From positions 8,676,717 to 8,740,716 of the forward strand of contig NC_037597.1 in NCBI RefSeq assembly GCF_003073045.1: DNA of 64,000 nucleotides, given 5' to 3'. The notes under the pieces were generated by a model, which worked only from the letters and a program-made list of their open reading frames with translations, ran no database searches and was not told the DNA's origin. The DNA comes from Pomacea canaliculata (lineage: Eukaryota > Mollusca > Gastropoda > Architaenioglossa > Ampullariidae). Position numbers and translations under genes: made by a program. Below are positions 27,874-58,810 of the stretch, one piece after another (the stretch's first letter is position 1; every line of letters begins with the position of its first letter).

Positions 27874-27906
<33 letters not shown>

Positions 27907-32765: not shown

Positions 32766-33799
32766 TTAAACAGTCAAAAAAGCGATCCATTTTGAGAATG
32801 AATTTTGCTGTTTCATGGCAATCAGGGCTACCATATTAAGCATCACTTTTCCCACACTGCAACTAAGCACCTGGCTTGCCAATCTAACATTCATGATAGA
32901 AGTAGATGTCAGATATACATGATCATAAGTAAGTTTAGTTCTGTACAGCTGACTAGATGCATCTCTGTTAAAGATATCAATGACATGCTTCCAAAGCAGA
33001 TGTTGACCATTTAACCAAAGATAGCGTGTCTGCCGACCTGATCCAGAATTATATAGTTTCTCCAGGCCTGACGAGAGGGGGGGACAGGGGGTCTGGTGTA
33101 CCCGGGCCCGCGGCTGTCAAGGGGGCCCGGCCTTGGTCAGTGGATTTTTTTTCTTCTTCTCCTTTTCTTTTTCTTTTAAAGAAAGGTCTAAGGACAGAAC
33201 ACCCAAGCATTACATATGCAGAAGTTGAGTTTCAAGTCTGTAGAATACAATTTCGGGGTGCTGGGGCCTGTCGTGAGAAGTGTAGTCAGCGGGTATCATA
33301 TTCTCGCTGGACAAGCCAAGAGCTGACGGCCGCTGGACACCAAAGATTTTATCGCGTGTCAACCGCCCTGAAGAACGTTCGTGCCATGAGATTGCTGGCT
33401 ACAGGTGCCACTAAGGGGAAGGGTGGGGTGGAGGAGGGGGCTGGCCCTGCAAGCAAATCGGAATGAACAGTGGAGATCAGGCAGGTATGTTACTGATGTG
33501 TGCACTGGCCACTCTGTGAACCGACATGGTGGGGGCCCGCCCCTGGCGCTGCAGCCTGTAAGCGAGAGACATCAAGGCTGCTTTTTTTCGTAGTTACTAA
33601 GCAACACTGAGACTTTTTTTAACCGTATCTCCATCACCAAACAAACAACTACATTAGTCTACACAGTAGATCCTTGATACAATGAGACTATATTATCCTG
33701 TAATACTATCGCAGCCAGCAAAATAGAACACATTATTGCAAAACATTTTAAAAACCCCGCAAATATTAGGTTTATAAATTGATCACGGTGGTGTCGCGG

Positions 33800-34130
33800 G
33801 AAGTTTGGAGCTGGAGGAGGATGATAAAGAGGAGGCTAGCATGAGAAAGGTAATTTAAGCAGGCGAGGTGGAAGGCGGCGCAGAGCGTCGAAGTGGCGGC
33901 GATTGACACCATCTCGGAGGACTGCAGCCCGACCGGTCAGGGAAAGTGACTGCCCCCGTCGTCCGTACAGGATGACAGGGAAATAAAGTGTAGCTGGCCT
34001 GACTGGAAAGGTCCGACGGCGGAGGTTGTCATTTATGGCAGTTGAGTGATGGCGTTGCTCGACACCGGCAGTGAGGTAACGACGGTCACTGACGAGTGGG
34101 CACGAGGGCAATACAGGACTTACAGCTAAA
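33800..34130 (+). mobile_element. Relic of LTR-retrotransposon protease region
   Basis: A plus-strand frame contains MALLDTGSEVTTVTDEW, the retropepsin-type active-site signature (DTG) typical of Ty3/Gypsy-class pol. It is a short broken fossil inside composite repeat copy 1 and is absent from copy 2. Confidence 0.45.
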
Positions 34131-34381
34131 CAAACTCAGGAGTGGCGGTGGTGGACATGTTTACGGCCAGCGTCTGAGGACGTTCCTATCCTGGTGGTCA
34201 ATAGAAAAAGTTATACTGTACAATATTTGTCATTTTACCTGCTCTAAAAACTTTATGGCGCTAGCTTTCTCACAAACTCGCCTCATTATCCTGTCAGTCA
34301 ATTTGAGACGCTAGTCACTCTCATTGACACTGATGTTCCTTGCTTGTCAAGGTCATGCTATTTGCCAATAAACTCGATTAT

Positions 34382-34712
34382 TTTTTTATTTTGTATTTTT
34401 AGCATTTTAGAAGGATCTATAAAAAAAAGCTGCGGTGTCACACTTTCCTGTACAAAGTCACTTCAGTGTTGAACAGAGGATAGAACATGTAAGTAGCCTG
34501 TGTGGCAGTCACTGTAATATTTCTCAGTATTATTTCAATGTTCAACAACTCAACCTGATAACCACATAATCAGCGGACTGCCGGCTTACATTCTTACTTC
34601 CAACTCACACAGAGTACTACTAAAAACTCAGAAAAATCGAATAACGACACCTAGGTCTACTTTTTTTTTATAGATCCCTTCTAAAATGCTAAAATACAAA
34701 ATAAAAAAAAAA
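34382..34712. mobile_element. Foldback/MITE-like element with long inverted arms
   Basis: The left arm (34,382-34,440) and the reverse complement of the right arm (34,643-34,712) agree almost base for base over about 55 bp, sharing AGCATTTTAGAAG followed by GATCTATAAAAAAAAG. About 200 bp of unrelated sequence separates them. No coding capacity. The arms lie within the part of copy 1 that is rearranged relative to copy 2. Confidence 0.6.
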
Positions 34713-34774
34713 TATTAAAAAAATATATAAATAGACAGTTTTGACAAGGCAAGGCCCGCGTCAAACAAGAATAC

Positions 34775-34983
34775 TCAATTGGTAGAGTGACTAGCGACAG
34801 GATGCTGCGCGGATGTGGTTGGGACTGGATGAAGAGGTGAGAAAAGCTCAGCGCCAGCCGACGATTTTTAGAGCATAGGAAATGACAAGTAACTTGAGCA
34901 GTATAAAGCCGTTTGTACGAACCCTCGCTACTATGCCACCACGCTCGGTCCCGGTAGGTGGTAGTAGCGAGATTTGACTGTAT
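34775..34983 (-). mobile_element. Pogo/Tigger-like transposon end, inverted relative to copy 2
   Basis: On the minus strand the segment starts TACAGTCAAATCTC, continues with ACCTACCGGGACCGAGC and then TGGCATAGTAGCGAGGGTTCG. This resembles pogo/Tigger terminal repeats, which begin CAGT and insert at TA. It matches 54,930-55,150 of copy 2 in reverse. Confidence 0.4.
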
Positions 34984-35589
34984 ACAGCATCATATATGAC
35001 AGCTTCCTTGAAGACAACTAGCGCACAATAAGAAAGATTCCGAGGTGGCTTTGGGTGACGGATGGTGGGTACTTTTTTAGTTTGTAGGCAAAGAGCAAAA
35101 AGAAGGTCGGAGGACGATGTGTTATTACAGGGCGATGCTGGTACATCGCCTGAGGTCGTGCGACGTCCACACTTTAGTTACAGTAGTCAGAGTCCTCCCT
35201 TTCAGGTGACATAACTCTCCTCCCTATCCGGCGCCATCCACCTCACCGTGCGAACACTGTCGACCACCTCATCACGTTGCTGTGGCACTGATGTCGACAT
35301 CCTTCCGTTCGCCGTACGCCTCCACTAGGACACCAAGATCTTTCTCGGCGTATCTCTTGCGTCATGCGGAAGCATCAACACTCGACGTCTGGCAGGTCCC
35401 TCCAGCGAGCTCAAGATGTAACCACGAGCCGCATTCTGACACATCGGGTTTATGGCGAGAGCTAACTCGACCTCTGTTTCAATCTCGTCGACACTCGTTG
35501 GTCCACCAGCAAACTACTGAAAGCGGACTAACTAGTATGCTCGTAGAGCCTCTGCCCACCCAACGGATAGCATCATGGTCCTCTCTATG

Positions 35590-35700
35590 TACTAATCTTC
35601 TGTCGTGGGCTTCTGCCCGTGATGAACAAATGTTTCTTTTTGTTCAGCAGTGCTTTTAGGCCCTTGGTCACCCAAGGTTTGTTGTTAGGATAAACATACA
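35590..35700 (-). mobile_element. LINE fragment, endonuclease-RT linker
   Basis: The minus strand encodes PNNKPWVTKGLKALLNKKKH, matching the PNxKPWVTxELKxLLxxKK motif found between endonuclease and reverse transcriptase in CR1/jockey-like LINEs. The surrounding 35,160-35,590 is GC-richer and probably part of the same insertion, but I recognise no other motif. Confidence 0.5.
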
Positions 35701-35872
35701 CTGCCTTGATGGACTGGTGCAATCAACACTATTTTACTCCTCACTTTTACTCCTAACTGTTTGTTAAATGTCTGTATGGGTATGTGAGCAAAGACAAATT
35801 TCTGTCCTCCTGGGCAGACAATAAAGTCTGTTTTGATTTGATTTTGATTTGATTTTGATTACGATTCAGCTA
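35700..35872 (+). mobile_element. LINE 3' tail with TTGATT repeats
   Basis: The sequence CAGACAATAAAGTCTG leads into repeated TTTTGATTTGATT units, a common 3' terminus of invertebrate LINEs. Confidence 0.5.
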
Positions 35873-36683
35873 AAATATGCTAAACATTTATATTTTTCTG
35901 TCATTTTTACAAAACTTTCTAATCTCCTTAAATATTAAAAGTATTAACACTTACTAGCTAACTAGTCTTTAAAACAGTTGCTTTGTCTTTTAAAACTCAG
36001 CAGGTATTTTAACGGCTAGTGACTGATGGGGTTTGAAGTCGACCGAGTTTATGCTTCGTAAAAAGTTGGATGAATTCAAAATGTCTGCTTTAAAGAGTCT
36101 GAAGGCGACAGTTCAGTTCAGATATTTTGTTTACGTGTAACAGCATGCGTGTGTGTAGTTATTGTGTGTGTGTGTGTGTGCGCGCGCGTGCGGTTTTGCT
36201 AAAGGAATAATATAGGAAGGGACTTTCGATAGGTGCTGCGTGTTTGTTATGTAAGTTGATAAAAATGATAACTGATGTGTTCTGCTGTTCGTCGCAGCAA
36301 ACACTTTTTTAATGAGGTTATTAACGACACTCGATGAAGACTTGTTTAGGCATTTACTTCTTCGGTTCTTCCTCTTTACATGTAGAAGTATAAATCACTT
36401 ACATAGAGAACATTTCCATGCACGTCAGTGAGCTTAGTACAAACTCGCAGCACTTACAACAAAAGGCTGTGTGGTACCTCTAGCCGTTGTTCTAATCTGT
36501 CGAGGTTTTGACATCGCTGCTGACGTAACAGTCCTTACTAAGGGGGGGGGGTCTGTGGAGCGGGGTGCTACAAGTCTGATCCTTTAACTCATTTGTCCTC
36601 ATTTACTAACCACTTTATGTTCAAGTAGTGAATGTAGATCCTAGTGCACTTGTCTACGTTTGCAGTTATATTTCGTTACTGAA

Positions 36684-37911
36684 TGTCACGGATCAGTCCG
36701 TGCCTCCTTTGTTTTTTTTTTGTGCAATTGCGCCTGAGTTTGGTGAAAGGAAATGGAGGGGAGCGGGGTGGCGTAGCCAGCCTATGTGTGTGTATGCCAT
36801 GGACAGTCAACGGCGTAATTAGTTGACGGATATAGAGGTCGTGAACCCCACGTGAGTTTCGGACCTCACGTGCGGCTGAAAGAATGCGACACCTGGTCTA
36901 GGGGACTGGGGTGAAGCGTCGGTCGGGGGGGGGGGAGGGAGAAACGAGTAACAAGAGGAAGTATCGAGCAGCGAGTTGAGGGGGGAGAGCCATCCAGCGA
37001 TCGAGAAGCTGATTGATACAGCGGCGGCTGTTAATTGTGTTAATTGTGAGTGGAGTGGATTGATGACGGACTTGCTGTACCGTGTTTGCTACGGAGCCGC
37101 TGCTGTTGCTGTGTTTGGGGATCGCAACTTCTGTTCAGTAGAACTGCTGCTGAAGGTTCCTCGCCGAATCTGCTACTGGGAGCGGTGGACATCGCCGAGC
37201 TGAGAAGTTCCAGAGAAGAACAAACCGAGCCGACGACTATAGGCGGGCAGCATCTCATCACAGCTGGGGAGTGTCGAGCAAGTGGCTCCACTCTCGTACT
37301 TGACAACGACGACGACAAACCGACCGCGTGGAGGGCCGTCGCTGTCGTCTTTAAAAGTTGTGCAGTGTAGTGTCGAGGACACTGACGATTTGATTGTCCG
37401 CTGAAGCCGACAACGCAAAGTAAGACTTTTGCCTTTTGAGTTTACCTCCAGAGAGAGAGAGAGGGGGAAGGTCGTATCCCCCATTGTTTATCTCCACCGT
37501 CAACGTTAGAGGGAGAATAAGACGGTTTACACGGACTGTGTGTATGTGTTTGATAAACATTTATGGGCACACAGACATTGCTGGTGGCTAGAAAGGTGCT
37601 CGGAGAGACTATCGTTAGGTGTGGATTGAAACGGACATATGTATGAGAACTGTTGTAGCAGCCTGCGTGCTGCCGTAGTGTCGATGTTGAACCAACCTAG
37701 GATGTATACTTTCTGATTTAGAACGGATAACAGTGAACTTGTGCTGTATGGTTTAATTTGACCTGCTGGAAATTCTTGTATTACAATTTGTTTTGTTTTT
37801 TTTAGTATTTTTTCTTTTTGGTGTATAATAAATAACAGAACGTCTCAATCTGAAGTGATCTCTTGTCGTTCTTCGTAAAGAATGCGCAATGTCCGACTAC
37901 CGGTCGTGACA
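36684..37911 (+). mobile_element. Solo LTR with 5-bp target duplication (CTGAA)
   Basis: The element starts TGTCACG and ends CGTGACA, is about 1.23 kb long, and is flanked on both sides by CTGAA (36,679-36,683 and 37,912-37,916). A polyadenylation signal in a TATAATAAATAAC context near 37,825 sets the plus orientation. No internal coding region is attached, so it is a solo LTR. The same LTR sits in copy 2 with the same right flank, so it inserted before the two copies separated. Confidence 0.75.
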
Positions 37912-38232
37912 CTGAATGAAGTGTAGATATTGAGATTCGAATTGTAAACATACATTATATACTGGGGAAATAATTTACGATTACAAGTACAAGGGGCCCG
38001 GAGAGGTCGTCTGTCCCGGGGCCCGGGCTGGCTCTCGGCGGCCCTGGCAGCATATAAAAATAATATTCTCTCTTTAACTCTCAGAGATTTCACTTTCTTA
38101 CATCATCGGTCGTTTTTCTTTCGGAATATTCAAAGAAGTTGTTCATGTATCTCTACAAGGGATTTTACGAGTTTAGTTTGTTTTAAGAAGAAAGAAGTGT
38201 ATCAGTAGTTGGGGTCAGTGAGTTCTACTCAC

Positions 38233-41096
38233 ATTTCGAGTCAGCATGCCGATGGCGCCTGTCCACTCTTTCTTCGCATTCACTTCGCCCCAAGTGCCGT
38301 CTGGCGATTGTAAGAGAACGCAGCTGCCACCACAGGGTTAGAAATTCTTACATGAGAAAAATTGCTGTTCATATTTTGAAATGCTTTGAAATAACCGATT
38401 AAACAAATAATCTTTGTCGGAAAATAACACTCCTGCTAGTAGCCAAAGGAAGCTGTAGAAAGACTGTAGAAGAATGTTCTACTCCACAAGCACAAATGTC
38501 ACACATCTCTCAATCATTCCCCTTGCCTTGTCCACTGTTGATACTTTTTGATGGCAAGTTTTGTTATTAGCGCATAGTTGTATTTTCTCATGAATTGATT
38601 TGAGAAAGAATTATTCGTGAAAGGTAAAAGCTACACAACTCGAGGACTAGCAGGAAGAAAGTTTATGTTCAATTTACCTGAAATTGAGTTTTCTTGCGAT
38701 TTCAGTCAGCATATCCATGACCACGCCTTCATAAGCTTCTGTCTCTTTGGATTTGAATAGGAAGAAGGATCTCTAAATATCAAACAAGGGATACAAATAT
38801 TTTAGAACATGAATATATCTATCATTTCAGCACAAGCATCACAACCACAACCGCTTCATCGTGTTGTTTTAAACATTTTTGACTAGTTTTTCACACCAAA
38901 TACTGTACATGCCAAGACGATACAAAATATTTTTCAGTTGATAACTGAACTTTACCAACAGTCGTTACTTTGATATGTTTCAGCTTTCTCTAGAAATAAC
39001 CTGTATGCCATCAATAGTGTAAAAGAATGAAGACAAAGATTCAACGAAAAAAGCACAGAAACATTCAGAACATGAAGTAGAAAGGAAGAAAAAAAAAAGA
39101 AATGAACCAGTTTATCAAAGCGAAAGCAAGTAAATCATTTCCGTTTTTAAAATATGAACTAAACAGAATGAGACGGGAACGTGGAGAGAGCCTTTTAGTA
39201 AGGCAGCGAGGGAATGGGAGTTACCTCCATTACTACGATCCTGAGTTGTCTGACCCCCAGCCCCAGTCCAGGGTTGGGGAAGATAACTTGTGGGGTTAAC
39301 CGGACGGTAGTGAGGGGCAGCGAGGACAAGAATCTGAATTTGCACTTCTCTCCCTCACGAAGTAGAGTCCACAGCTCAGCTCCTCCTGTCTGAAGAGATA
39401 AAATAAACATTGAAAGTCTGCCAGCCTATCGCGTTCTCGCCTTCTCGCGTTCTTACCACCCTTTATGGGGAAGGGCTTCTTGTCCTCAGTCTTGGATAGT
39501 AATATTGCCTTAAGAACGTAAATTAAAGTTTAAAAACTTCCCAACCCCTCTGTGGAGTCAGACACTCCATTTCTAATAGTTGGGTCGACTCGGTGAAGCC
39601 GTCTGCGCCACACGGGTATCTAAAGACTTAGAAGCTATTGCTCTAACCACCCGACTGTCGGCTTCTCTTACCTCTATAAAGACAGGACACAAATCAAAAG
39701 AAGTATTTTTACCGTTTTATTCGCAACAACCAAGACGTTTTCAAAACCTTGGACTGTAGCTTCAAATGGACGGAGATCTTCTTTCGCCAAAATGGTGATC
39801 CATCTTGTTGTGAACTGAAAGTGCCTCAACTGTTCAAAGAATTATAAAGCAAGCACTAAAAGACAGGCATCTGGAATGTCATTTATCATGCAAATACTTT
39901 GTACACACCGAGGCACACACGTTTACACAAAAATACGAACACACACTAATAAAAGTATGTGCACACACTCAAGCATGTAAAGACTATGTCTAGTGGTTAC
40001 TATGTCGTTCTGGGAACAGTAATTAATTTTGTAGATGATTATTAGCATTTTATTGTTCTTCATATCGTCTGTTATCGAGTCTAAAATGCTCTTTCAAGAA
40101 TGAGTACAAGTTTGCAAATGGGTCAATTTCATTTACGTTAGAGTAAAATAAAATTAAAAAATTGTAAAATTGTAAAAACAATTCAGGACCAAAAAAACAA
40201 AACAAATCATTCTCTACCTACTCCATGAAACACTCCTGTCACAAAGTCAGCAGAACCAACAACGACAACATTGTGGGTTGGCAGTGTCGCCAAGTCCAGC
40301 TGAGCGATCTGTGACAAACCCACGTCCACCACCAGCACCGCCAGGCTCGCCGCAGTCAGGTCATCGGTCAAGTCCTTAATATCGACATCTGCATCATGTT
40401 GGGAAACGCTTGACAAAAGTCAACAGGTTTAGGTTTCTTTGTCCTGTTAGTCAGTAGAAAGCGGCTTTGTCTCTGTTGCCGTGTGTGTGTTTGTGTGTAT
40501 GTGTTTATGTGTGTGTGTGTGTGTTCGTGAGCGCGCTTGAATGAGAACAAGATGGCTACTCACTCGCATCGCCGATTTGACTGTTACTGATAACTGTCAC
40601 CTCCAACCACTCAAGCAGTCCGATGACTTCTCTGAGAGCTTGGCTCGCTAAGAAAAAAAAAAGCATGATAAAACCTCTATAAGAATTCGCAATACCAAAG
40701 CAATTTTTTTTTAAATCAGGAAACATTTTTTCTTCCAATCTATTCATTAAGGAATAATTTGTTTAAAACACTGCTGTTTGTCATCTGCTATTTGCAAATA
40801 GGTTACACGAGCATCTATATTAAAATACTTGCAAATATACTACATGAGCATTTGTGTATAGTAGAACACTGACGAGGCGACTAATAGCATCCTGTTAAAA
40901 AAAAACAGTGTGCAAAGAAGAGAAAAAGAAACTCGCTAACAATCAAACCCCAAAACTCACCGGATATTCTGTCGCTGGACACACCGGACTGACACACTCG
41001 GTCTGGCTGTGTCAGTACCAATGTCCACACCACAGAACTAACAGCCAGCATCTCTCTTTGTTGCAGCAACATGTCGGCATCACGAGGGGACGAGCA
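38233..41096 (-). CDS. Ionotropic glutamate receptor, partial (seven exons)
   Basis: Exons, 5' to 3': 41,096-40,961; 40,647-40,564; 40,408-40,222; 39,829-39,713; 39,389-39,225; 38,772-38,678; 38,323-38,233, about 290 residues. The first five belong to the extracellular amino-terminal domain (LREVIGLLEWLEVTVIS, LAVLVVDVGLSQIAQLDLA, HNVVVVGSADF, WITILAKEDLRPFEATVQG, LRIVVMEV). The last two are the start of ligand-binding lobe S1, with YEGVVMDMLTEIARKLNF and SPDGTWGEV-x6-EWTGAIGML, matching the YEGFCIDLL and DGKYGxxxxxGEWNGMV motifs of glutamate-gated channels. Phases agree except for one base between the second and third exons. The rest of S1, the channel helices and S2 were not found before the composite repeat. 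The subfamily cannot be assigned. Confidence 0.7.
39540..39690 (-). mobile_element. tRNA-derived SINE
   Basis: On the minus strand a tRNA-like head has an A-box region (TCGGGTGGTTAGAGC) and a B-box-like GAGTCGACCC. It is followed by a body with GGAGTGTCTGACTCC, which can pair with itself. It lies in an iGluR intron. Confidence 0.55.
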
Positions 41097-41666
41097 CTGA
41101 GATAAAGCACGCTAGAACAACCCTGGTCCTGGTGACGGGTCTGGGTTATATCCACTCTCCAGACCATTGTTTGCACAAGACCACTCACTCAAGACTTTTT
41201 TCTTCTTCAGTGGTGTGCAAACGTCCAGAGGAGTTAGATACACAATGGCCAGGTACCAGATTCAAACAAACAAGGTTTATTGACATCTGTGTAATATTAG
41301 GAGCTGGGATCCTGGATCTTCGCTACACAAGAAATTATTACACTGCTCAATAGGAAAATTAAAGAGGTGAGAATCTGTGAAGGTTTGGATGTCATTGTAA
41401 ACATGTAGATAGGTGACACACACCTTCAACTCCTTACGACTGAATCGCGTGGGTGGGTGCGTGCACGCCCTGCACCTGCTCCGATCAAAATATCTCATTT
41501 TGTGAATGTCTCTAAACACGAAATGACAATAAATTTCCTTGATCGTCTTGAAAACGGCTTTTCCAATTTGTTTATCTTTTTGACATTCGTGAAGCAGGTC
41601 GGTGTTTGTATAAGAGAAGGTACACTTCTTATTTGTACACAACTGCACGACACTTCCACACAGTGA

Positions 41667-42137
41667 TTATCGCATTTCCTCCATTCGAACCTTCCTTTTC
41701 TCCAATTCGTAGACAAACATCTTTGTGTATGTCGTCTTATTAGTCTCCGTCTTCTGGAGAAAGTAAGTTGCTGGGGGAGGGAATCCATCGACAGCGAGAA
41801 GTGATTTTAGCACGTGATCAAATATTGACGAGATGAAAGTGAGCGATAATTGAATGAGAAAAATGAAAAGAAGGGAAGGGTTGGGGTTGCAGTTGGTAGA
41901 GGGGAAGATGATATTGTTTGTACAGCCCATCGTACAATTCCATCGCAAACAAGACTGTCCGCAAGGTCCTGCACCCTTGCCAGAACCTTGCCTACTTGTT
42001 CGTGAGAGTTCTGGCAGGTGACCGTCTGCTGAGATTGTCAGCAAATCTCGATCAAATAGCGGCCAGTCGGGGTATCCAAAGAAGAAGCTCGCATTACCAG
42101 AGACCTTGATCATTACCAGACAACAAGACGTTGCCAT
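41667..42137 (-). CDS. Unassigned open frame, 156 codons
   Basis: The longest minus-strand frame upstream of the iGluR exons. Its first 45 codons (FFFGYPDWPLFDRDLLTIS) look protein-like, and a second frame reads KVLARVQDLADSLVCDG over nearby bases. I recognise no domain. It could be an upstream exon of the iGluR gene with a frame error, or chance. Confidence 0.2.
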   Translation of the reverse strand: MATSCCLVMIKVSGNASFFFGYPDWPLFDRDLLTISADGHLPELSRTSRQGSGKGAGPCGQSCLRWNCTMGCTNNIIFPSTNCNPNPSLLFIFLIQLSLTFISSIFDHVLKSLLAVDGFPPPATYFLQKTETNKTTYTKMFVYELEKRKVRMEEMR

Positions 42138-42139
42138 GG

Positions 42140-45100
42140 ATACACGACACAGACGTGAATGATTGGAGAGGATATTTCACAACAGACTCACCACAGTATT
42201 TGAAGCACGTGCTGATCTCGAACATTAGCATAAAAATCTGATGTTTTTTTTGCTTGTCCAAAGCGATTGAATATTGCTGATGTCTCGCAGGTGTTTGTAT
42301 GTCGTGCTGTCATTTTCGCGGATTGTCTCTAAAATTCCAGGTAAAGACAGCACTCTCTACCCACCCCACATGGCAGGCCTTATCAGAGAGCAAATGTCTG
42401 AAGGCTGATTTACAAGATGCATTCTTATAGAATTTCATGCACCCCCATTGGATCAGATTAATTATCACAAACTAGTCTGGGACCAGAAACGAGCTTTGAG
42501 GTTATCCAGGACTGTAGACTACCTACAAGTCCATCTCTACGAAGTTCAACAAGATGTTCTCGAGACTGACAGTCTCCTTTTCTATTCTTTTTTCTTACTG
42601 TTGTATCAAGGGTCTAAATTATATCTGATGCCTCGCCTGCTACTGCAATCCTAAAAATCCTAATGAACTCTTATTTTTGCATTCGAGTTGGATGTTTGTG
42701 CTACCTTTTACATATTTATTTATCGGCCCAGTGCTGCTGCTCAGGAAGACAAGCACTGCACTCAGATAAAGTCGTGGACGACTTTCCGTAAACACGTGTA
42801 TAAACAAATGTTGTCGGCATCCGACATGAAATCATTTTTCAGATTGCGAATGCAGACTCTAAGGGCCGACATGATTTACACCTCTCTCGTGTTTCTTGCT
42901 GACCTCACCTGAAATTCAGTCGGAAACTCATCCCACACACACACATTATCCAATAAAATTATTTTAGAATACCATAATCCCATTTTATCACAAGGCGAGA
43001 AATCGTTTTTCAGTTGAAGCTCAAGCAGACGTGAGATGTTGACAGGTCAGTTTCAAGGCAAACACCGACAATTTGAACGCATCTCAAGTTATAGTCTAAA
43101 GCACAGCAAACAAACAAACCCTCACCAAAGTCATTGAAATGCATCTGTGCTTTCCTGTGACGTGAACTTTTGACCTCCCAGAACAACATAAACACAGGTG
43201 AGCGGGTCAACAAGCAGCGGGCTGTAGCATCGCCATGTGCCGGACCGTTGAGAATGGCGCAACAGGAGTCGTCTGCTCGCTGTTAATGGCATCACTCCTA
43301 CTTCAGTCCTATTATCATCCTATGTTTTCCTCCATTCCTCTTTTATAAAAGACGAATATGAGAGATGTATTTCACCACTTCGGTTTTTTTTTTCTTCGCG
43401 TAGAAATAGTCCCTGAGGCAATTTACCTTTGTGTATTGTAACAGTTCTCAAAGCGATTAATAAGTTGTTTTTTTAAATGGATTGGCAAACTCGATCTTTA
43501 TAACAAATAGACTTGATGCTAATTTTTAAAAAGATTGTTTTGCTGTTACGTTGGTAGTCACTCGTTCCTGTATTTTTCCTTTGCTGAAACACAGGTCTCT
43601 AGGCCTCCGGAGCTGACTGCTGTGAGAAAATTGGTAGAGACTGGTAAAAAAAACCAAAAAAACAAAAAACAAAAAACAACCGGCAGAGAAAGTATCTATA
43701 TATATAATACCTAAATTATTGTCATATTTACGGCGACATTTTGATACCAGACATCAAGCAAAACAGACCACGAATCCTACTGATAGTTCCTTTAACTCAC
43801 GAAAAAACTTCTTTCTAAGACTTTCGCCTGCGATGATCAACTTTATTTGCTGAGGCTTTTTAAATTCTGTTTGTTCGGTCATCTGCGGGAGGATTTTCAT
43901 GGATTGTGCATGGTTACTAAAGGTGATCCCACCTGTACCCTGGCTGTCACGAGACCTCTTCAAGTGCTCACGATGCATGATGCAAATTTGCAGGTCGGTT
44001 ATCAGGCTGGACCTTTCTCCAACTGTCACTCACTGAAGACAGTCGCACGGCAGCAGGCAAAGGTGTCCGTTAAAGAGTTTGTGCTACCTTGGGTTGCTGC
44101 CTGGTTACTAAATGCACCACTCTTGTTCAATGTGACAATCATGCAACTAATACCGGGACATTAGCAGATGTGGACTCCTGTTAGGAGCAGCCGGACTTTT
44201 GTCCAGGTGTTTGTGTAATACCGTGTAACTAGCAGACTGGAGTTACTCTTCAAGATATTCAATTGTTTCGGAGATGTAGAAGACATTGCTAGCAGACCAA
44301 GGCCCCATCGAAAAGAGGTGGACACCATCTGGAAAATATTAGCTTGTCTGACAGGATGATCATGAAGATGTTGACAGCCTCACCGTCACTCTTTGTGTGG
44401 CGGGCAGTGTCAAGCCCTCTGTATGCTTCTGCTTAGTATTAACAGATGTATTCTTCGAAACACTAAATCATCATTCTACAAACAATTTTTTGAAAAAGAT
44501 GTTTATTTCTCGAACGGAAAAGATGAAAATAAAAAAAGTATAAACTGTGTGTTTGTGCATCAAACAAATGGGCACCTTATCACATTTCATATGAGATTAC
44601 ACATGCAATTAAAACTCGAGATTTATAATTCTTCTTTCTCTCTCTCTCTCACACACACACACACAAATACACAAAGGCGTACGTACAAACATATGCACAC
44701 ATAAAAACATCCAGTATGCACGAGATTCCACCCTAATTAACTTCCCTCACACCCATAATCCACTTCTTTGGTGTCGCGCTTTAATTCCATTTGAAAATAT
44801 TTCTAACTGCAACATTCTCAGCACATGACAAGGGGAAGGTAATGTCTACAGCTCATCTCCCCTCACTTAAAAGATCCCACACTGAAGCGGGTGGCTTAAT
44901 TGTACATATACAAATATTGCTTCAGTAACAGATGCTGCTGTCACTAGCGACCTTAGGATGAGATTTTTTGTCTTGAAAGTCAGTTCCTGCCAGTCTGTGA
45001 GCATTAAGTCGCAAAACTAAAAGCAGTCACGTCACTTACCCATACTTACTTGCGCTACGAATATTGGTGCAAGTGCTTGGCTTCTAGTTCCACTAAGTTC

Positions 45101-45448
45101 TTACCATCCTCCTTTCGCTTAATAGGTTGACTTATTTGTTTTCAAGGGAAACAGCTTCCACCGTGCGTTGATTTTGTGTTATATGGAATCGAGAAAGTGG
45201 CTCAACGTGCAAATATCAATAAAAGTCGGCAATAAAACACCTCACGCACGCGCCTTTCGCGGTCGTCCTCCCCTTCCCCTTTCTCCAACTGCTGCTGTAT
45301 CTGATGCTGGTCGCATTTCTCTCAACAAAGGACGGATCTTTAAAAAAAAACAGCCTTTCCCATCATCGACAAAACCTTGATAGAGTCACAAAATGATAAT
45401 GAGTAACATTTATCATTGAAGTCATAAATAGTAACATGGACAGGATCA
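42140..45448. other. Spacer between iGluR and Dispatched-like genes
   Basis: No certain gene. A minus-strand frame at 43,754-44,029 (DLQICIMHREHLKRSRD) could be an exon of the iGluR gene but shows no known motif. A (CT)n(CA)n microsatellite lies at 44,636-44,668. Confidence 0.35.
44636..44668. repeat. (CT)n(CA)n microsatellite
   Basis: A CT run passes directly into a CA run. Confidence 0.7.
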
Positions 45449-48400
45449 TCACAGTTGTTTGGGAACGTTGGAACCTGCAGCTACTGCCCCGCTAGTCTGT
45501 GAGGAGTCTTCCCCCAACCCCCCGTGGAAACCTTTGCCCTCGCATTGTTTGCATGTCACGTGGTGAGACTTCCGGCCCCGCAGTTTGAAGCGCACCCACC
45601 AGAAGACGGGGACGAGGGAACCCGTCTGTTTCTGCGGACCCACCAGCGCCATGATGACGCTGAAGCCGAGCAGAGCGAAGAAGAGCGAGAAGCCGATGGT
45701 GGCGAACATGAAAATTCCGAACTGCATGAAGAAAAGAATGACAGCGCCGCACATGAAGACGGCGGCGCCCAGCGTCGTGATGGCCCCCGACAAGATGGAG
45801 ATGCCCACGTGATCCAGCATGTCACGTGTCCGGTCCAGGCGGTTCGCTGCGGTGGATGAGTGGTATCCTTCCGCCAGGTGCACGACGTAGTCCACAGACA
45901 GGCCGACCACGAGGGAGAGGTTCAGGGATTCCAGTACCTGCACATTACAGACGGTAAACCAATAATAATAACCAATTAATAACCAATTAATGTATGTTGT
46001 AACTATATTTGTGTATTATTTAAGTGTATTTTATTTATATATTTTGTACTTTATTCCCCCACCCACTCTCCCAACATCGGTTGTGGGCACGAGCCTACCG
46101 AATAAAAGAAATTGTCACTGTCATTGTTTTTGTATTCCTTTCTCTTTTGGTTATTTTTGTCTCGTAAACCAAAATCTTACTATTTAAGGATTTTTGTGAT
46201 CTTTCAAATATATTTACTCTGACAATAGATAAGCCGAGTCCACAAAGTCCTTTCACTATGTAACTATGTAAATCTTGCTTGATGTGACTCTCAGATTAAA
46301 CTGGTCAGTCTGAAGATAATACTCACCCCTAGTTTCCAACCAGCCATAGGAATAAGACCCACGACCATTAGGGTAACAAATCCGATGTCCAAGGTTGCTA
46401 GGAAACCAGTGATTACATTGTGGTTGCCAGGGTGATGACAACAAACGCCAGAGAAAGCCCAAGAGCAATTCCTTGCACTGCCGTGTCTGTGAGTTTCTGG
46501 TGGTGAAGACAAGAGACTGGCGATAAGAGATTTGTTTTTAACAAAAATAGTTGTTAGCCAAACAATCGGCTCACTAATCTGAGAAATGGCGATGTTAGCG
46601 GGTCAAGCTGGGAGGTTCCGGATTCACATCGTGTTTCCACTGACATTTCCCATAAGATGGAACTACATGTAAATTAGTTTTATCCACTGATGTTTAAAAA
46701 TATTCAGTTTTCGCTCCTCATCAAAGGATTTGCGTTGCACAAGATTTTTGTTGAGTCACACACACTGACCAGGAGCAGAAGACATTCACTGCCGCTTGTG
46801 TCATAAAAGTATTTGTATCACTGAAAGCATTTGATGCATGGAAATATATTGTCTATAATGTTGGAAACTGAGACTGAGTGATGTTAATCTGATTAATGTA
46901 GTCAACATTACCTTTTGGACATAGAAACCGTGCCACGGGTTGCTGGATTCCGGTGTGCACTGAAACCCTCCAGCTAACGAGCTTGGCATCACAGACACCT
47001 GAAGATGCACGTGGCAAGATTTTAACAAAATACTCAGAAACGCATCAACGAGAAAAGAAAAAGAACAACAAAAACTAACAGACAAATAACGAGCTCTTGA
47101 CCACACAGACAGATGCAAGAGAAACCAGTATCAAGCAAGAATTCGTATTTTATCCGTTAAATGGATGTTGAAAACGCTTGCTAAACATCAGCTCACAAAA
47201 TACTTGGCATCGAGAGCAAGAAGGCATCATCGACATCGTTGTTTGTTATTGTCTTACCTGGTTTTTGAAGAAGTCATCCCAGGCCTCGACAATGGGGATG
47301 CCGGTGCTGTAGCCGAGGGTGCCCACCTTCAGGGTGGTGTTGACGACGATGGCGGCGTACACTAGACGGGTACCCCAGTCCTTGGCTACCCGCACACAAT
47401 ATGAACATGAGTAGCTTTAGTTAAGAAGGGGTAGGTAACATTTTAAAACTTAAATACTTGTTTGTTGGACTTTTTGTTGTGTTTGTTTGTTTTTTGTTTG
47501 TTTGTTTTTTGTTTGCTTGTTTTTTGGTTTTTGTTTGTTTGTTGTGTTTGTTTTTTGTTTGTTTTGTTTTGTTTTGTTTTGTTTCGTTTTGTTTTGTTTT
47601 ATACTGCGCTTCGAAATCTTTTATCTTACTCCAAACCTCACGTTTGGATAAGTTGTTTTATCTTTGAAGATCAGCATGGTAAGCTAATTTTACCAAACAC
47701 AATGAGGTTTTAGGATACTTTGGAGGAGCTTTGCCTAGTTTAAGTATGTCATGAGTTGTTTTATGACAACAGATGGTGTAGCTTAAATAAACTGTAGACT
47801 CCTGGAGTGTTTAAGGAACCTCCAACGCGCGGGACTTCTGGTGTCCCCTCCATTCGTTGGAGCATAGAACGAAAATAACCACGGATGTCACATTTGTATA
47901 CAGCACAGAAATGTTATTCATGTAGGAGGTGACCCTTGTCGACCCCAGAGCCACGTGTAACAAGCGAGAACTTACTTGGATCTATGGCGGTAGGTCTGGT
48001 GTCGAATTCATCCTTCCCCTCACCCAGCAAGGGGGAGTAGATGCTGTAGTCGTAGTTGGTGGGACCGCGACGGTAGGTGTCGTGCAGCCAGTATCCCATC
48101 ATCGTCTGCATCGACAGTAGCAGACGTTGAGTAATCATCATCGCTGTCATCGCTGCTTATATCACTGTCTTAGTCGTTATCGTCAACACTCTCATCATTG
48201 CTTTCATCCTCATTATCATCCTTATCATCGTCTCTATCATCACTGTCGCTGCCGCTGTTACCCCTGTCTTCGTTGATGTCATTGTCGTTGTCATCAGTGT
48301 TGTCTTCATCGATATAACTATTCCTTTCCTCATTACAGTCATCCCGATCATCGTCGGAGCGAGAAAGGGTGGGTAGGGTGGGAGGAACTTAAAGTGACTA

Positions 48401-51400
48401 GACCTCGACTGACCTCGAACTGTCGGTACAGGAGAGGGTTGACTGACGTCACGTTGTACACGGCTGAGTTGTTGAGGATCAGATGCTCCACTTTACTTTC
48501 TGACGTTGGCAGAGTCAACTCGGGTGTGTTAGCCGGGTATTGCGTCTTATTTCTTTCGCTCTGCAAATAGCAGCACTGCATTAAATCATATTTGTGAACA
48601 TAAACCATTACTACTTTAATACAAATAGGGTTTTGTGCGGTTCTTGTTTTGTTGTGTGCGTGCACTAAAAAACAAAAACAAAACAGAGAGAGTGAGAACG
48701 GTCCCATGAAATTTTCTACCTTCATGAAGGTATTTATGTGTTCTAGAAAGCACTGAACTTCGATGCTGCCGGTGACCGGGTTCCGACGCAGGTGAAGTTT
48801 TTCGTTCTGACTGGCCGACAGATTCTTCAGTTTCTCACAGAAATCCTGGTCAGGGGCAGAAAGGCAGATTGATGTACTGCAACTGACTTCCATCATTACT
48901 CACATCCTATGAACAACTTGCTTAAAAAGTCAGAGAATAAAAAAAAAAAATGGCGGTCATTTCTCCTAAAAATTCGGTAGAGTATAGGTCAAGATACTAT
49001 TTACCTAAAGCTAAGGGTATACCCACCTTTCAGTTCGCGAGATACCTACAAACATCATTAAAAGGTTTATGTCAGTGTGTGCGTGTGTGCGCGCACCCGT
49101 GTGTACCTTAGTGTGTGCGCGGGCGTGGCTATGCGAACTAGATTAATCAACCGAAATAATTACCTATTTGAGTTTTTATTTTTCTATTTATAATTCTTAT
49201 AACTGGCGTTAGACTGCAGAGAAGGAGACACAGAGGTCGCTTTCTTGCGTCATCTGTGTACAGGGCACACCCACACCTCCAGCCTGGAGACGACAGCATA
49301 TCACAACACACTGAGAGAAACAGTTGCACTGTGTAGGGACCCTTGCACGAGAACCCGGGTACTGACTGGGACCCGTGCACCCGACCTGGACATTGGCCTC
49401 ACAATAAATGGATTTTCTGTGGCACCATGACACACATGTCGAGAGATAACAGAAAACAGGAAGCAGATAACAGTCACATCATGCAGAAGGAATGTACGAG
49501 AAATGACTTGTGAAGACAAGAAAAAGTGCAAGAGGACTGAAACTCATTTTAAGTTTGTTGGTTAGGGGCATAGAGGGGTGAACAAGATTGAGAGTCGCAT
49601 ACCAGCAAGGCGGACTGAGCGCGTTTGGGGTTGAGGTCAAAGCCCTTGTCCCACACTGTGACCCCTTTACAGTTGATGTCAGTCTTGGCGCAGGTGGTCA
49701 GGTCCTGCTCCCTGAGACCCCACACCATGTACACTTTGATCACCTTGTCCTCCGTGCTGGGCTTGAAGCCATCGCGTATCAGCAAAGCGGCCTTGCCAAA
49801 GTGATGTTCATTTTTATAATACTTTATCTGGTCAAAAAACAGAAATATTGTCTTTGACTTAGTGGCACCAGCACAAACTAAATTTTGTTTTAAAGATTTC
49901 GACAAATTCACTCTAGAACCACTTTACTGGAGGAAAGATGTGTGTGCTGGGATACATGTCACGTGACAAAGCGATGACATCAATCAGCACAACAAACCTT
50001 GTCAGAACTGTTACAGTTTGACCAAACACAAAAATTAACTAGGTAAAGATTTGCAATCAAGGTTTTGCAAAATTTGCAGAATTTTTAGAACCCATTTTTG
50101 AACTTTTGATCATTAACGTTTAAGCATTTCTTAGGTGAAATCTTAAACATAAAACTGTGTTCTTACCGATTCTTCGTCAGGCTTCAGTTTAGCAGCGAAA
50201 ACGGAAAAAACAATTATAATTCCAAGACACAGAGCAAGTAGTGCCCAGCGCAGCACTCTGTGGCTGACAAGGTTGTAAAAGGGTCCGCGGAAGAACCTGA
50301 CGATAGGATGGCGACGTTCACCATCAGCAGATGCTGCGTCCTTGATCTGTTTTTTACACCTGTGGAAAGTGAAGAACAGTGTGGATGTGACTGCATACCT
50401 GTCATACTCTTTTCATTTTAAAAAAATGGCTATTAGAAGTCGAAAGTTTTTGAAAGTCATTAAGCTTGAGTAAGTCGTTGCCCTGGGGCAACGAGAAAAT
50501 TTAAGGACAAGCGTCTTCTGTCCCAAGTGATAGAATGGTATCCAGACCCCGCAGGTATGGTTGGACTCACCTGAAGCAGGGCCAGGACCACGTGTCCCAG
50601 TAGTAGTGGTACATGATCAGGACGGCTGGGAAGAAGATGATGACGGACATGTAGTTGACGAAGACCAGGATGCCAGAGAAGAGGCCGAAGGACTGCACGG
50701 CGAGCAAGGGAGACAGCGCATTGCTGAAGAAGGCCACCATGGTGGTGAGGGAGGTGCAGAAGGTGGCGATGGCCGCCCTTTTGTAGCAGGCTGACAGTCG
50801 AGCCTCCAGCGAGGTGTACTCCAGGTGGGCGGTCGCGCGCCAGTTATCCACGAAGACGAAGATGTTGTCAGCGCCGATGCCGAGGATGATGAAGATTGAG
50901 AGGACGTGGAAGATCCCGAAGTACTTGTACTGGAAGATAAAGCTGTAGACGAGCGTGGCGATGACGAAGCTGGAGATAATGCTGAAGATACCAAAGCTTG
51001 TTAGGAAGAGCGATTTGGTCATGAAAAGGACGAAGAGGAAGATGAAGAGGAGAGAACCCACAGCCAGCAGCAGGTCCCAGATCACCTGCAACATTTTATA
51101 GCATGATTTTCTATAATTATTTCCCTTCTTTCTGGACAGTAGAGATATCGTAACTGATTTACAACTGTCAAATGTGTGTCGTCAGTAAGGCACCTTTTTG
51201 ACTTAAAAATTTTGATAGGAAATAGATAGAAAAGTGTTTGCTTGAGTAGAGAGTAAACATGGACAGCAAAGACTACGCTACGGTCAAATCATTGCAAGAT
51301 GATCAGAGCATGATAGCGAGATGAAGATGCCTGTTACCTGCTGCAATAAATTGTAGGTGACAATCTGGGTTCCGAAGTACAGGAAGTCCATGTCCCCGAC

Positions 51401-52105
51401 TCCGGAGTCCAGCGCTTCGTTCAGAATAGCCGAAAAGAAATCCGCTTGAAACCGACGAATTTTCAGAAGCTGCTCTGTCTTGTTGTCTTCTTTGAGGTTG
51501 TAACCGTCCAGCGGAAGCCCAAACTGAAAGATGGTGCGTGTGATAGAGGATTTGGCTTCGGTCTGGGTGACACTTCCGTCGACTCCCAGGTGGAGTTGTA
51601 GTAACTGAGCGAGCAGGGGCACTTGGGATGCCCCGAACAGTGTCGCTGGTATGTTGCTGAAGGTGGTGTCGTTCAACCCTGTGACCGTAAGTTCCGTCGA
51701 AGAATCGAAGAATGGAAATGGGCTTGGCGCACTCTCTCGTCCCGCTGCCACCTGTCAGTCTGCAAAATTTCTTGTACTCCTCCACGCCGAGGAGTCTATC
51801 CTCCAGCTGCTTCATCGCCAGAAGGCGCTCCTTGGTGAAGACTGTGGAGTCGCCTGTCAGGTACATCAGCACCAGGGAGTCGGCGACTTGCGATCGTTCC
51901 CCGATGGTGGTGACGTCTGTGTCTTTGCCCACCACTGTCCCGTCCTCGTCTCGATACTTCCAGGCCAGAGAGCGCAGAAAGGTCGGGTCATCTTGCAGGT
52001 CAAGGGGCACGACGTCGAATTTAAAATTAACTATCTTTTTGCTGTCCCACATCGCTAAGGCCAAGGTGACAATTAAAATGGCGACGTGGATTCCCAGTGT
52101 GATTC
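45449..52105 (-). CDS. Dispatched-like RND/sterol-sensing-domain protein, 5' exon(s) missing
   Basis: Exons, 5' to 3': 52,105-51,338; 51,085-50,571; 50,359-50,167; 49,827-49,603; 48,845-48,720; 48,560-48,414; 48,105-47,976; 47,385-47,258; 46,998-46,912; 46,496-46,327; 45,937-45,449, nearly 1,000 residues. The first exon starts with a membrane helix (GIHVAILIVTLALAMW). The next gives helices of a sterol-sensing domain with GIGADNIFVFVDNWR. Exons 4-9 form a large extracellular loop, and the last two give the second helix bundle with GLSVDYVVHLAEGY. The acidic residues in GADNIF and GLSVDY match the GxxxD proton or ion-relay motifs of Patched/Dispatched transporters. Dispatched releases lipidated Hedgehog from cells. 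The tail is soluble and has one CxxC pair. One-base frame disagreements occur in the first exon near 51,700 and near 46,410. No exon upstream of 52,105 was identified. Confidence 0.8.
47460..47605 (+). repeat. GTTTG/GTTTT pentanucleotide-like repeat
   Basis: A G/T-only tract of GTTTGTTTTTT and GTTTT words in a Dispatched-like intron. Confidence 0.65.
48106..48360. repeat. Cryptic ATC/GTC trinucleotide repeat
   Basis: About 250 bp of imperfect CATCATCGCTGTCATC-type triplets in a Dispatched-like intron, starting directly next to the exon that ends at 48,105. Confidence 0.6.
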
Positions 52106-54929
52106 CTGGAATAGATTATCGGATGAAGTAGTGAATGATGATGGTGGCGGTGGTGGTTTCGTCAATTCTTACCGTAGACAGAATTAAAAGTTGGCAATAG
52201 CCAATACACTAATTTTTCAGTATTTTAGCTGGTATGCAGGCCTGACGAGAGGGGGGGACAGGGGGGTCTGGTGTACCCGGGCCCGCGGCTGTCAAGGGGG
52301 CCCGGCCTTGGTCAGTGGATTTTTTTTTCTTCTTCTCCTTTTCTTTTTCTTTTAAAGAAAGGTCTAAGGACAGAACACTCAAGCATTACACATGCAGAAG
52401 TTGAGTTTCAAGTCTGTAGAATACAATTTCGGGGTACCGGGGCCTGTCGTGAGAAGTGTAGTCAGCGGGTATCATATTCTCGCTGGACAAGCCAAGAGGT
52501 GACGGCCGCTGGACACCAAAGATTTTATCGCGTGTCAACCGCCCTGAAGAACGTTCGTGCCATGAGATTGCTGGCTACAGGTGCCACTACGGGGAAGGAT
52601 GGGGTGGAGGAGGGGGTGGGCCCTGCAAGCAAATCGGACTTAACAGTGGAGATCAGGCAGGTATGTTACTGATGTGTGCACTGGCCAGTCTGTGAACCGA
52701 CATGGTGGGGGCCCGCCCCTGGCGCTGCAGCCTGTAAGCGAGAGACATCAAGGCTGCTTTTTTTCGTAGTTACAACCGTATCTCCATCACCAAACAAACA
52801 ACTACATTAGTCTACATAGTAGATCCTTGATACAATGAGACTATTTTATCCTGTAATACTATCTCAGCCAGCAAAATAGAACACATTATTGCAAAACATT
52901 TTAAAAACTGCTGTCCCGCAAATATTAGGTTTATAAATTGATCACGGTGGTTCTTTTGCTCTTTGCCGACAAAGCTCCCAGTAAAAAGGAGATACTATCT
53001 ACCCACCATCCGTCACCCAAAGCCACCTCGGAATCTTTCTTATTGTGAGCTAGTTGTCTTCAAGGAAGCTGTCATATATGGTGCTGTATATTGAGTTTTG
53101 CGGTGGCTGCGACATTTGCTTTTCGAATTATCACATATATTTGAATGTGTTTTTAAAGTGTAACGTATAGTTGTTTCACGATGAAGAATGGAAGAAAAGA
53201 AAAGTTTACAGATGTGTTATGAGTTATGACATAAGTGTTAGTTTGTCCACGTTTTCATTAAATTTCTCCATGTCTTGAACCCCACAATCAAGGTAGAGGC
53301 AAATTATGTTTTAGTTTAGAGGCCAGTGACTAAGATGACAGCAACTTCCACCCATGCCGGCCATCGTGGGCCGTATTGCATTGTTGCTGACAACACGACA
53401 AAAGGGAAAGGGGGTGGGGGTGTGATAGTTTCTGGAAGACTCCACGGAATGGACTGGGAATTAAATGGTCGGGGTTTGGAGCAATTGGAGGTGTAGACTG
53501 ATATTTTTATGAGATAGACGAGTCAGCGGTAAAGTCGCCGTGTGTTTGACCTGACACTTAATTTTCCCATCCCTTTCGATCGGAGTCATTGGACCAAAGA
53601 AAGCTTGGACAGTTGGACCTTAGAGATAGCGATAGTCACTTAACTTCACACCGCACTCTCCTGCCTGTCGCACGCTGTCTTCTAGACTCGAAAAGCCGAG
53701 ATACGCGGCACTTTGTTATTATGGTCAGTACACTAGTTTTTTATTTATGCTTCTATGATTTTCTGTTTATCGGCAAATAGCATTTGACAAGGCAGGAACA
53801 TCAGTGTCAATGAGAGTGACTAGCGTCTCAAATTGACTGACAATAATGAAGTTTGTGAGAAAAGCTCATTAAGTTTGTAGCACTCTAGTAGTGTACGAAG
53901 TATAATGTCTTTGGGTTGTAGATTTGCATCTATATTCCAGAATGTTCAGCACGGCAGCAATGTAAAAGATAGAATGTCTTGTGTGAGGGAGGAAATGATG
54001 TTCAACAATGTAGCAATGTTCAAAGTAAAATGTCTGCGAAGAAGGGCTAGAATGTTCGAGGGTAGGGAGAAGAAATAGTAGGACTGACAGTGGGATGGCA
54101 GCTTTTGTGAATTTGAGAGAGAGCAGTTAGGCCAGACGCTGAGCAAAACTGAATAAAAAACTTCAGTGCGGAATTCAATCTCGGTGTTATTTCTGGTACG
54201 ACAGCCCCCTCTATGTAGCCATTTGACATGTTGGTTACAAGTGTTTAGTCAGCAGGTAAAATGACAATATTAGTCTTGTATAACTTTGTTCTATGAACTA
54301 TTACGATTCAGCTAAAATATGCTAAACATTTATATTTTTCTGTCATTTTTACAAAACCTTCTAATCTCCTTAAATATTAAAAGTATTAACACTTACTAGC
54401 TAACTAGTCTTTAAAACAGTTGCTTTGTCTTCTAAAACTCAGCAGGTATTTTAACGGCTAGTGACTGATGGGGGTTGAAGTCGACCGAGTTTATGCTTCG
54501 TAAAAAGTTGGATGAATTCAAAATGTGTGTGTGTGTGCGCGCGCGCGCGTGCGGTTTTGCTAAAGGAATAATATAGGAAGGGACTTTCGATAGGTGCTGC
54601 GTGTTTGTTATGTAAGTTGATAAAAATGATAACTGATGTGCTCTGCTGCTCGTCGCAGCAAACACTTTTTTAAATGAGGTTATTAACGACACTCGATGAA
54701 GACTTGTTTAGGCATTTACTTCTTCGGTTCTTCCTCTTTACATGTAGAAGTATAAATCACTTACATATAGAACATTTACTTGCACGTCAGTGAGCTTAGT
54801 ACAAAAGGGCTATGTGATACCACAGTGTTGGGATAGACAGAAGACAATTAGAAGAGGTACTAACGAGATTACGAGAGAGATACGTCTTAGCCCTAGGCAG
54901 TTTTTAAAAGGTGATTATTGTCTGACACT

Positions 54930-55270
54930 ACAGTCAAATCTCCCTACTATGCCACCTACCGGGACCGAGCAAAAGTGGCATAGTATCGAGGGTTCGTAAA
55001 AACGGCTTTATTTGCTCAAGTTACTTGTCAGTCCAAAGCTCTCAAGAATCGTCGGCTGGCGCCAGCTGTCTCCTCTCATTCTCCCCCTCACCTCTTCATC
55101 CTCCACCCCTCCCAACCACATCCGCGCACCTGCATCCTGTCGCTAGTCGACCCCATCCCGCTCTCCCGCTGTCACCCGGCCAGCGACCACCACCCCCCAC
55201 ATTGCCAGCCTCCACCCTCCCTGTGTGCGTGCTAGGTTCCATCCCCACTAACTGCGATGTCGCACACTAC
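54930..55270 (+). mobile_element. Pogo/Tigger-like transposon piece
   Basis: It starts TACAGTCAAATCTCCC, followed by ACCTACCGGGACCGAGC and TGGCATAGTATCGAGGGTTC, so the start forms an internal partial palindrome like pogo/Tigger terminal repeats. The right end is unclear. The first 220 bp recur in reverse in copy 1. Confidence 0.4.
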
Positions 55271-55324
55271 CGTACAGTATAATAATCGAGCACTGCGTGG
55301 AATTTCACAACTTGTGTCTTTTAA

Positions 55325-56573
55325 CAGTCCGTGCCTCCTTTGTTTTTTTTTTGTTTTTTTTTTTGTGGCAATTGCGCCTGAGTTTGGTGAAAGGAAATGG
55401 AGGGGGGAGCGGGGTGGCGTAGCCAGCCCTGTGTGTTGCCCCTCTGCGATGGACAGTCAACGGCGTAATTAGTTGACGGATATAGAGGTCGTGAACCCCA
55501 CGTGAGTTTCGGACCTCACGTGCGGCTGAAAGAATGCGACACCTGGTCTAGGTGACTGGGGGTGAAGGGACCGTAGCGTCGGTCGGGGGGGGGGGGAGGG
55601 GGAAACGAGTAACAAGAGGAAGTATCGAGCAGCGAGTTGAGGGGGGGAGAGAGCCATCCAGCGATCGAGAAGCTGATTGATACAGCGGCGGCTGTTAATT
55701 GTGTTAATTGTGAGTGGAGTGGATTGATGACGGACTTGCTGTACCGCGTTTGCTACGGAGCCGCTGCTGTTGCTGTGTTTTGGGGATCGCAACTTCTGTT
55801 CAGTAGAACTGCTGCTGAAGGTTCCTCGCCGAATCTGCTACTGGGAGCGGTGGACATCGCCGAGCTGAGAAGTTCCAGAGAAGAACAACCCGAGCCGACG
55901 ACTATAGGCGGGCAGCATCTCGTCACAGCTGGGGAGTGTCGAGCAAGTGGGCTCCACTCTCGTACTTGACAACGACGACGACAAACCGACCGCGTGGAGG
56001 GTCGTCGCTGTCGTCTTTAAAAGTTGTGCAGTGTAGTGTCGAGGACACTGACGATTTGATTGTCCGCTGAAGCCGACAACGCAAAGTAAGACTTTTGCCT
56101 TTTGAGTTTACCTCCAGAGAGAGAGAGGGGGAAGGTCGTATCCCCCATTGTTTATCTCCACCGTCAACGTTAGAGGGAGAATAAGACGGTTTACACGGAC
56201 TGTGTGTATGTGTTTGATGAACATTTATGAGCACACGGACATTGCTGGTGGCTAGAAAGGTGCTCGGAGAGACTATCGTTAGGTGTGGATTGAAACGGAC
56301 ATATGTATGAGAACTGTTGTAGCAGCCTGCGCGCTGCCGTAGTGTCGATGTTGAACCAACCTAGGATGCATACTTTCTGATTTAGAACAGATAACAGTGA
56401 ACTTGTGCTGTATGGTTTAATTTGACCTGCTGGAAATTCTTGTATTACAATTAGTTGTTTTTTTTAGTATTTTTTCTTTGTGGTGTATAATAAATAACAG
56501 AACGTCTCAATCTGAAGTGATCTCTTGTCGTTCTTCGTAAAGAATGCGCAATGTCCGACTACCGGTCGTGACA
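55325..56573 (+). mobile_element. Solo LTR, copy in repeat 2
   Basis: Same LTR as at 36,684-37,911, nearly whole, ending CGTGACA followed by CTGAA just as in copy 1. The shared right target duplication shows common descent of the two copies rather than two insertions. By eye they differ by a few percent. Confidence 0.7.
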
Positions 56574-56708
56574 CTGAATGAAGTGTAGATATTGAGATTC
56601 GAATTGTAAACATACATTATATACTGGGAAAATAATTTACGATTACAAGTGCAAGGGGCCCGGAGAGGTCGTCTGTCCCGGGGCCCGGGCTGGCTCTCGG
56701 CGGCCCTG

Positions 56709-57398: not shown

Positions 57399-57436
<38 letters not shown>

Positions 57437-58508: not shown

Positions 58509-58810
58509 TAGGCACAATTAAATGCTGAATTAATTAATTAAACTTAGACTTCACGTTTGTAAACCTATTAGTTTATCCAAGCAAATGCAAATGTGAAAGA
58601 AGTAATACAACACGTGTATAATAGAATCACCAGGCAATATACTCAAAGTAAACAATTAAAGTACAGTAAGTAGTCTGTACTAGTGTCAGATGCTAGACTA
58701 TTGAGAAAGATTAATGTACACTGAGCTCACATCATCAGTGGAACCTGTAGTGAACAGTGAACAGTGGACTGGCGGTGTAAGCAGTTGGTACAGGAGACAA
58801 GGTGGTGTTA

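Follow-up and report, generated by a model that had tools for sequence, protein, structure and literature searches.

In the consulted portion of a maize survey, Ds and Ds-like elements of the hAT superfamily are described as having short terminal repeats, filler DNA that replaces their coding sequence and LTR retrotransposons inside, and captured sequence common to several copies is read by the authors as transposition after capture (PMC3260210). The same portion reports 903 elements with 8-bp target duplications (variation of up to 2 bp being allowed) and 11 more putative elements when the duplication was not required, 5 of which the authors regard as in decay (PMC3260210). At inversion 2z3 of Drosophila buzzatii, Galileo, of the P superfamily, is represented by a pair of related copies that contain nested TEs and whose middle segments run in opposite directions; its terminal repeats are relatively long, the copies lie in opposite orientation and, as far as the excerpted account goes, their target duplications were exchanged and disturbed by ectopic recombination, a documented exchange between TE copies (PMC2775673).

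We compared the window (the whole 64,000-nucleotide stretch of Pomacea canaliculata DNA analysed here) with itself and found two copies of a hAT-like composite element, c1 (4,984 bp) and c2 (4,472 bp), in the same orientation and about 14 kb apart (Table 1). Both open with CAGGCCTGACGAGAG and close with CTCTCGGCGGCCCTG at exactly the bases given in the table, and their similarity is far above chance (for example, 95.6% over 1,391 columns). In the same self-comparison no similarity was found left of the two starts, and right of the two ends only 2 more bases, GC, are common (the alignment reaches 38,048 and 56,710). Against the remainder of the window, c1 and c2 gave only short weak matches of 15 to 29 bp (12 rows, best E-value 0.02), and no third copy was seen. 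Pattern scans of viral and genome contigs for other copies returned two matches, both judged from the surrounding sequence to be chance.

Table 1. Coordinates of the two copies, of their parts and of the adjoining transposase-like frame in the window (TIR, terminal inverted repeat).
Feature	Position	Strand	Basis
P-like transposase frame up to the left end of c1	32379..33062	-	TNP-like_GBD, E 3.6e-6, 27.8 bits (cut-off 24.8)
Copy c1, hAT-like composite element	33063..38046	+	termini identical to those of c2; imperfect TIR, 12/15
Block A, c1 (partner 52,237-52,951; 15 substitutions/707 aligned sites)	33063..33792	+	alignment
c1-only fragment like a retroviral-type aspartyl protease, internal stop	33998..34203	+	Pfam RVP, E 0.0046, 17.7 bits
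Internal stretch of c1, conserved pieces reverse-complemented in c2	34201..35104	+	alignment, edge comparison
Foldback with 52-bp arms, c1 only	34377..34713	.	self-comparisons of c1 and c2
c1-only stretch, LINE-like 3' tail at its end	35116..35857	+	by eye
Blocks E (35,858-36,087) and F (36,163-36,443), c1; 11 substitutions/511	35858..36443	+	alignment
Left CTGAA target duplication of the LTR, c1	36679..36683	+	sequence
Complete solo LTR, c1, 1,228 bp, TGTCACGG...CGTGACA	36684..37911	+	alignment and sequence
Right CTGAA target duplication of the LTR, c1	37912..37916	+	sequence
Copy c2, hAT-like composite element	52237..56708	+	self-comparison of the window; termini identical to those of c1
Block A, c2	52237..52951	+	alignment
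Inverted counterpart in c2, between blocks A and E	52951..54294	-	alignment, edge comparison
Blocks E and F, c2	54300..54805	+	alignment
c2 fragment with pogo/Tigger-like end	54929..55148	+	78.5% identical over 223 columns to c1 34,789-34,982, opposite strand
LTR of c2, first 10 bp absent	55325..56573	+	alignment and sequence
Right CTGAA, c2, without left partner	56574..56578	+	sequence

Elsewhere the window holds a tandem array with a 48-bp unit (57,882-58,510), two arrays of one 40-bp unit about 1.3 kb apart (62,051-62,510 and 63,804-63,985) and a LINE (59,437-61,521) that matches endonuclease and reverse transcriptase and is split over several frames. An assembly gap of 100 N lies at 27,916-28,015 with a long T run alongside, as the flanking frame suggests. 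On the minus strand, 45,449-52,115 holds frames of a patched/sterol-sensing-domain protein, with about 120 bp separating the frame ending at 52,115 from the start of c2. In this protein and in the LINE the window resembles animal DNA.

The termini of both copies form an imperfect 15-bp inverted repeat (CAGGCCTGACGAGAG / CAGGGCCGCCGAGAG) that matches at 12 of 15 positions; the chance of such a match at one fixed place is 1.2e-5 under a simple uniform model, for a repeat that was first spotted by eye. Short terminal inverted repeats of the CAGGG... type are the form typical of hAT. When the two 120-bp ends were aligned freely, the best local match was an inner GGGCCC-rich piece rather than the terminal repeat, with a score that 15 of 500 shuffles reached, and an unrelated site of the window, at 42,374, also fits the left 15-mer with 3 mismatches. 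The DNA fold of the two ends (z of -0.58 for the left end, -2.74 for the right) was given no weight. No transposase was listed in any of the six frames of c1 or of c2, where one weak unrelated match appeared (TraA, E-value 0.2), and neither copy gave a hAT transposase match in six frames. Both copies behave like a hAT element with cargo and we call them hAT-like; hAT membership itself is not claimed, because the 8-bp target duplication was looked for and is absent. A shorter hAT-like element inside block A, proposed by eye with its end near GCCCCTG at about 33,544, was rejected, its flanks being without a duplication too.

The cargo common to both copies is a solo LTR. In c1 it has TG...CA ends with short inverted repeats and sits between CTGAA on both sides, and the self-comparison of c1 contains no second LTR copy. 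In c2 homology to the LTR starts at LTR base 11, the left end and the left CTGAA being gone, and the sequence to the left is unrelated to that of c1 (aligned locally, the two left flanks reach a score of 13, against a mean of 14.8 in shuffles); c2 has TGTC where the LTR start would fall, by chance or not. The shared insertion site is therefore fully readable only in c1. The preliminary description had stated that both copies carry the LTR with the same right-hand CTGAA, which holds for the CTGAA (37,912-37,916 and 56,574-56,578), a complete LTR being present only in c1; its statement that the copies start and end at the same bases between unrelated flanks was borne out, the GC on the right being the sole excess. 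A literature search on solo LTRs co-mobilised by DNA transposons found no paper.

Of the 2,563 sites aligned over the collinear blocks, 43 (1.7%) differ between c1 and c2, with 15/707 differences in block A, 4/230 in E, 7/281 in F, 15/1,210 in the LTR and 2/135 in the right end. When the sequence was tested for a change in divergence by maximum chi-square, P was 0.67. Comparing the LTR with the remaining blocks (15/1,210 vs 28/1,353) gave P 0.12, setting the LTR plus right end against A, E and F gave P 0.09, and a hand-counted version of the LTR comparison (13/1,206 vs 28/1,351) gave P 0.057. Since the collinear blocks, LTR included, diverge evenly, the copies most likely split only after the LTR had arrived. 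All of these tests are compatible with a single split after the LTR was in place, and they leave room for an LTR that might have become somewhat younger than the remainder through conversion. Independent insertion of an LTR into each copy was rejected in view of the common right junction, which lies in a near-identical block (131/133 sites) and has diverged like the remainder. A CTGAA-flanked LTR inside a transposon puts the events in order, and indicates that the common ancestor already carried it.

The interiors have fared differently. By block coordinates, the collinear part makes up 2,594 of 4,984 bp in c1 and 2,605 of 4,472 bp in c2; the middle is partly inverted, and whatever remains occurs in one copy only. 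Between blocks A and E, three c1 pieces (34,201-34,253, 34,244-34,373 and 34,981-35,071) are reverse-complemented in c2, in an order that is reversed to match. The edges of the inverted stretch (34,201 and 35,104 in c1; 54,294 and 52,951 in c2) have scores of 62 and 36, where shuffles reached no more than 26 and 20. We also considered whether recombination between flanking inverted repeats had turned the middle round, and rejected this: the sole inverted repeat listed in c1 is the foldback, and none is listed for c2.

Among the private pieces of c1, the protease-like fragment was matched from a short query at a bit score below the curated cut-off of 20.7, and the long frames did not report RVP. 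The three plus frames of the c1-only stretch at 35,116-35,857 gave no Pfam match, and its tail is presumably that of a LINE. The fragment of c2 with what we take to be a pogo/Tigger superfamily end matches c1 on the minus strand (34,789-34,982 / 55,148-54,929) outside the order of the three inverted pieces; with an identity of only 78.5% and with such an end, the fragment probably represents an older repeat that arrived independently. Further private pieces are present in c2. One c2-only stretch, 54,140-54,206, has an AATAAA and a TGGTACGACA end, and by eye resembles the 3' end of another LTR family.

On its left side c1 adjoins a broken transposase gene of another kind. The P-like frame reaches base 33,062, the last before c1, with one internal stop, and matches the P transposase structure 6p5a (PDB) weakly (E-value 0.0052). 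Another frame there also matches TNP-like_GBD, at the end of the model (E-value 0.0022), which suggests a frameshift. For the first half of the P-like protein, no P-type Pfam match was found in the 6 kb right of c1 (38,047-44,000, both strands), and none was listed on the plus strand of 27,500-33,062 or on the minus strand of 28,700-32,378, 44,001-52,236 and 56,709-60,600, where weak matches to other families were all that appeared. Long frames can miss weak matches in such a scan, as the RVP case illustrates, yet the sterol-sensing domain was found in a frame of 2,744 residues. Six frames of the whole window were also searched with a P-like motif, with no match. A plus-strand frame of 168 aa (30,522-31,028) has a P-type C-terminal look by eye and no Pfam match. 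The broken frame fits what is expected if the right flank of c1 is not original; the P-like half may also have been lost before c1 arrived, or may lie beyond an intron.

A hAT element that inserts cleanly should leave its target duplicated over 8 bp. The 8-mers flanking c1 (AGTTTCTC / GCAGCATA) are equal at 1 of 8 positions and those flanking c2 (CTGGTATG / GCCAGGCC) at 0 of 8, so that neither copy lies in an 8-bp target duplication. Shifting the flanks by up to 3 bases per side raised the agreement to 5/8 at most, a value that 5,971 of 20,000 random site pairs reach or exceed. Pairing the flanks of one copy with those of the other gave 1/8 and 3/8, and the reverse-complement pairs gave 2/8 and 1/8 by eye, for which reason an exchange between c1 and c2 themselves was rejected; any exchange partners must therefore lie elsewhere, unseen. 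At the rate in the maize survey excerpt, two of two copies without a duplication would have a probability of about 1.4e-4, as a rough guide, maize being distant and the copies perhaps not independent (PMC3260210). Because neither copy has an 8-bp duplication and such cases are rare in maize, plain insertion fails to explain the present state of either copy, and some further event must be added, whether later remodelling, an exchange of flanks or a join in the assembly.

The reading that we favour, and consider somewhat probable as a whole, is that a hAT-like element gained an LTR retrotransposon that became a solo LTR, was copied with this cargo, and had its interiors and flanks remodelled. 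The common ancestor of c1 and c2 would have been one hAT-like transposon without a detectable transposase gene, into which an LTR retrotransposon would have inserted at CTGAA before the split; recombination between its LTRs would then have reduced it to a solo LTR. The exact ends suggest that the element, with the LTR on board, was copied to a second site, presumably through the action of a hAT-like transposase. After the split the interiors would have changed separately, with an internal stretch becoming inverted and other TE-like pieces entering each copy, and c2 would have had the first 10 bp of its LTR, and what lay to their left, replaced. The likeliest routes would be excision followed by interrupted gap repair, the nesting of further insertions, and ectopic exchange with other family members, the last of which would also explain the missing matching target duplications in both copies. 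The homology that runs 2 bp beyond the right-hand CTG counts against this reading. The preliminary description had preferred transposition of a hAT-like element with cargo over duplication of the locus while seeing no target duplication. The latter observation was confirmed for the own pairings (1/8 for c1, 0/8 for c2) as for the swapped ones; the preference draws support from the identical termini, from their hAT-like form and from the evenness of the divergence, and is weakened by the absence from both copies of the expected 8-bp duplication. The evidence comes from two copies, and their family, true ends and target duplication are unproved.

The chief rival, which we hold to be unlikely, is an assembly error that joined the flanks of different genomic copies across the repeat; it predicts the same missing duplications, and would turn these and the broken P-like frame into artefacts around a real element. 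Repeat ends are where such joins occur, and a join there would be expected to erase matching duplications, which are indeed absent, the window does contain one 100-N gap, and the transposase-like frame halts exactly at the left end of c1; against this, the private or inverted interior, from 1.9 kb in c2 to 2.4 kb in c1, would itself need placing.

Quite improbable is a local duplication of a locus holding one copy, after which the surrounding homology would have been lost or replaced: the copies do share their orientation, lie about 14 kb apart and have diverged evenly, but on either side the homology breaks off at transposon-like termini, with no similarity listed between the flanks.

We also give little credence to integration without target duplication by a hAT-like family, or by another superfamily with similar ends. 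Both copies are without a duplication, as this would have it, and the phrase "transposons without target duplications" does occur in the literature, as excerpted. The Spy group is such a case, its target lying between AAA and TTT, but the flanks of c1 and c2 do not fit that target; moreover, this explanation has two copies only to draw on, one of them beside a broken frame, and no transposase for classification. In the excerpt consulted, the target duplications of PIF/Harbinger, ISL2EU and Spy are reported to differ (PMC4482050).

Very improbable is a hAT-like family in which movement or rearrangement regularly leaves no target duplications, its interiors being continually reshuffled among copies and its solo LTR and TE pieces circulating as modules.

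If the missing duplications are real, the pair would document, compactly and in nature, how large DNA transposons lacking a transposase of their own are remodelled and exchange flanks once they have moved; if they result from assembly joins, it is a warning about inferring insertion history from repeat ends.

Returning to the systems described at the outset, c1 and c2 resemble maize Ds and Ds-like elements in their short terminal repeats, in filler where coding sequence would stand, in an LTR retrotransposon remnant inside and in captured sequence common to both copies; they differ in being without 8-bp duplications, and an internal stretch inverted between copies goes unmentioned for maize Ds in the excerpts of that survey (PMC3260210). 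With Galileo they share the pairing of two related copies whose middle segments are opposite and which contain nested TEs; unlike Galileo as excerpted, they have short repeats and the same orientation, and no exchange between them was seen (PMC2775673). A DNA transposon with nested or captured cargo is already known, and what is unusual here is the combination of missing duplications with reshuffled interiors.
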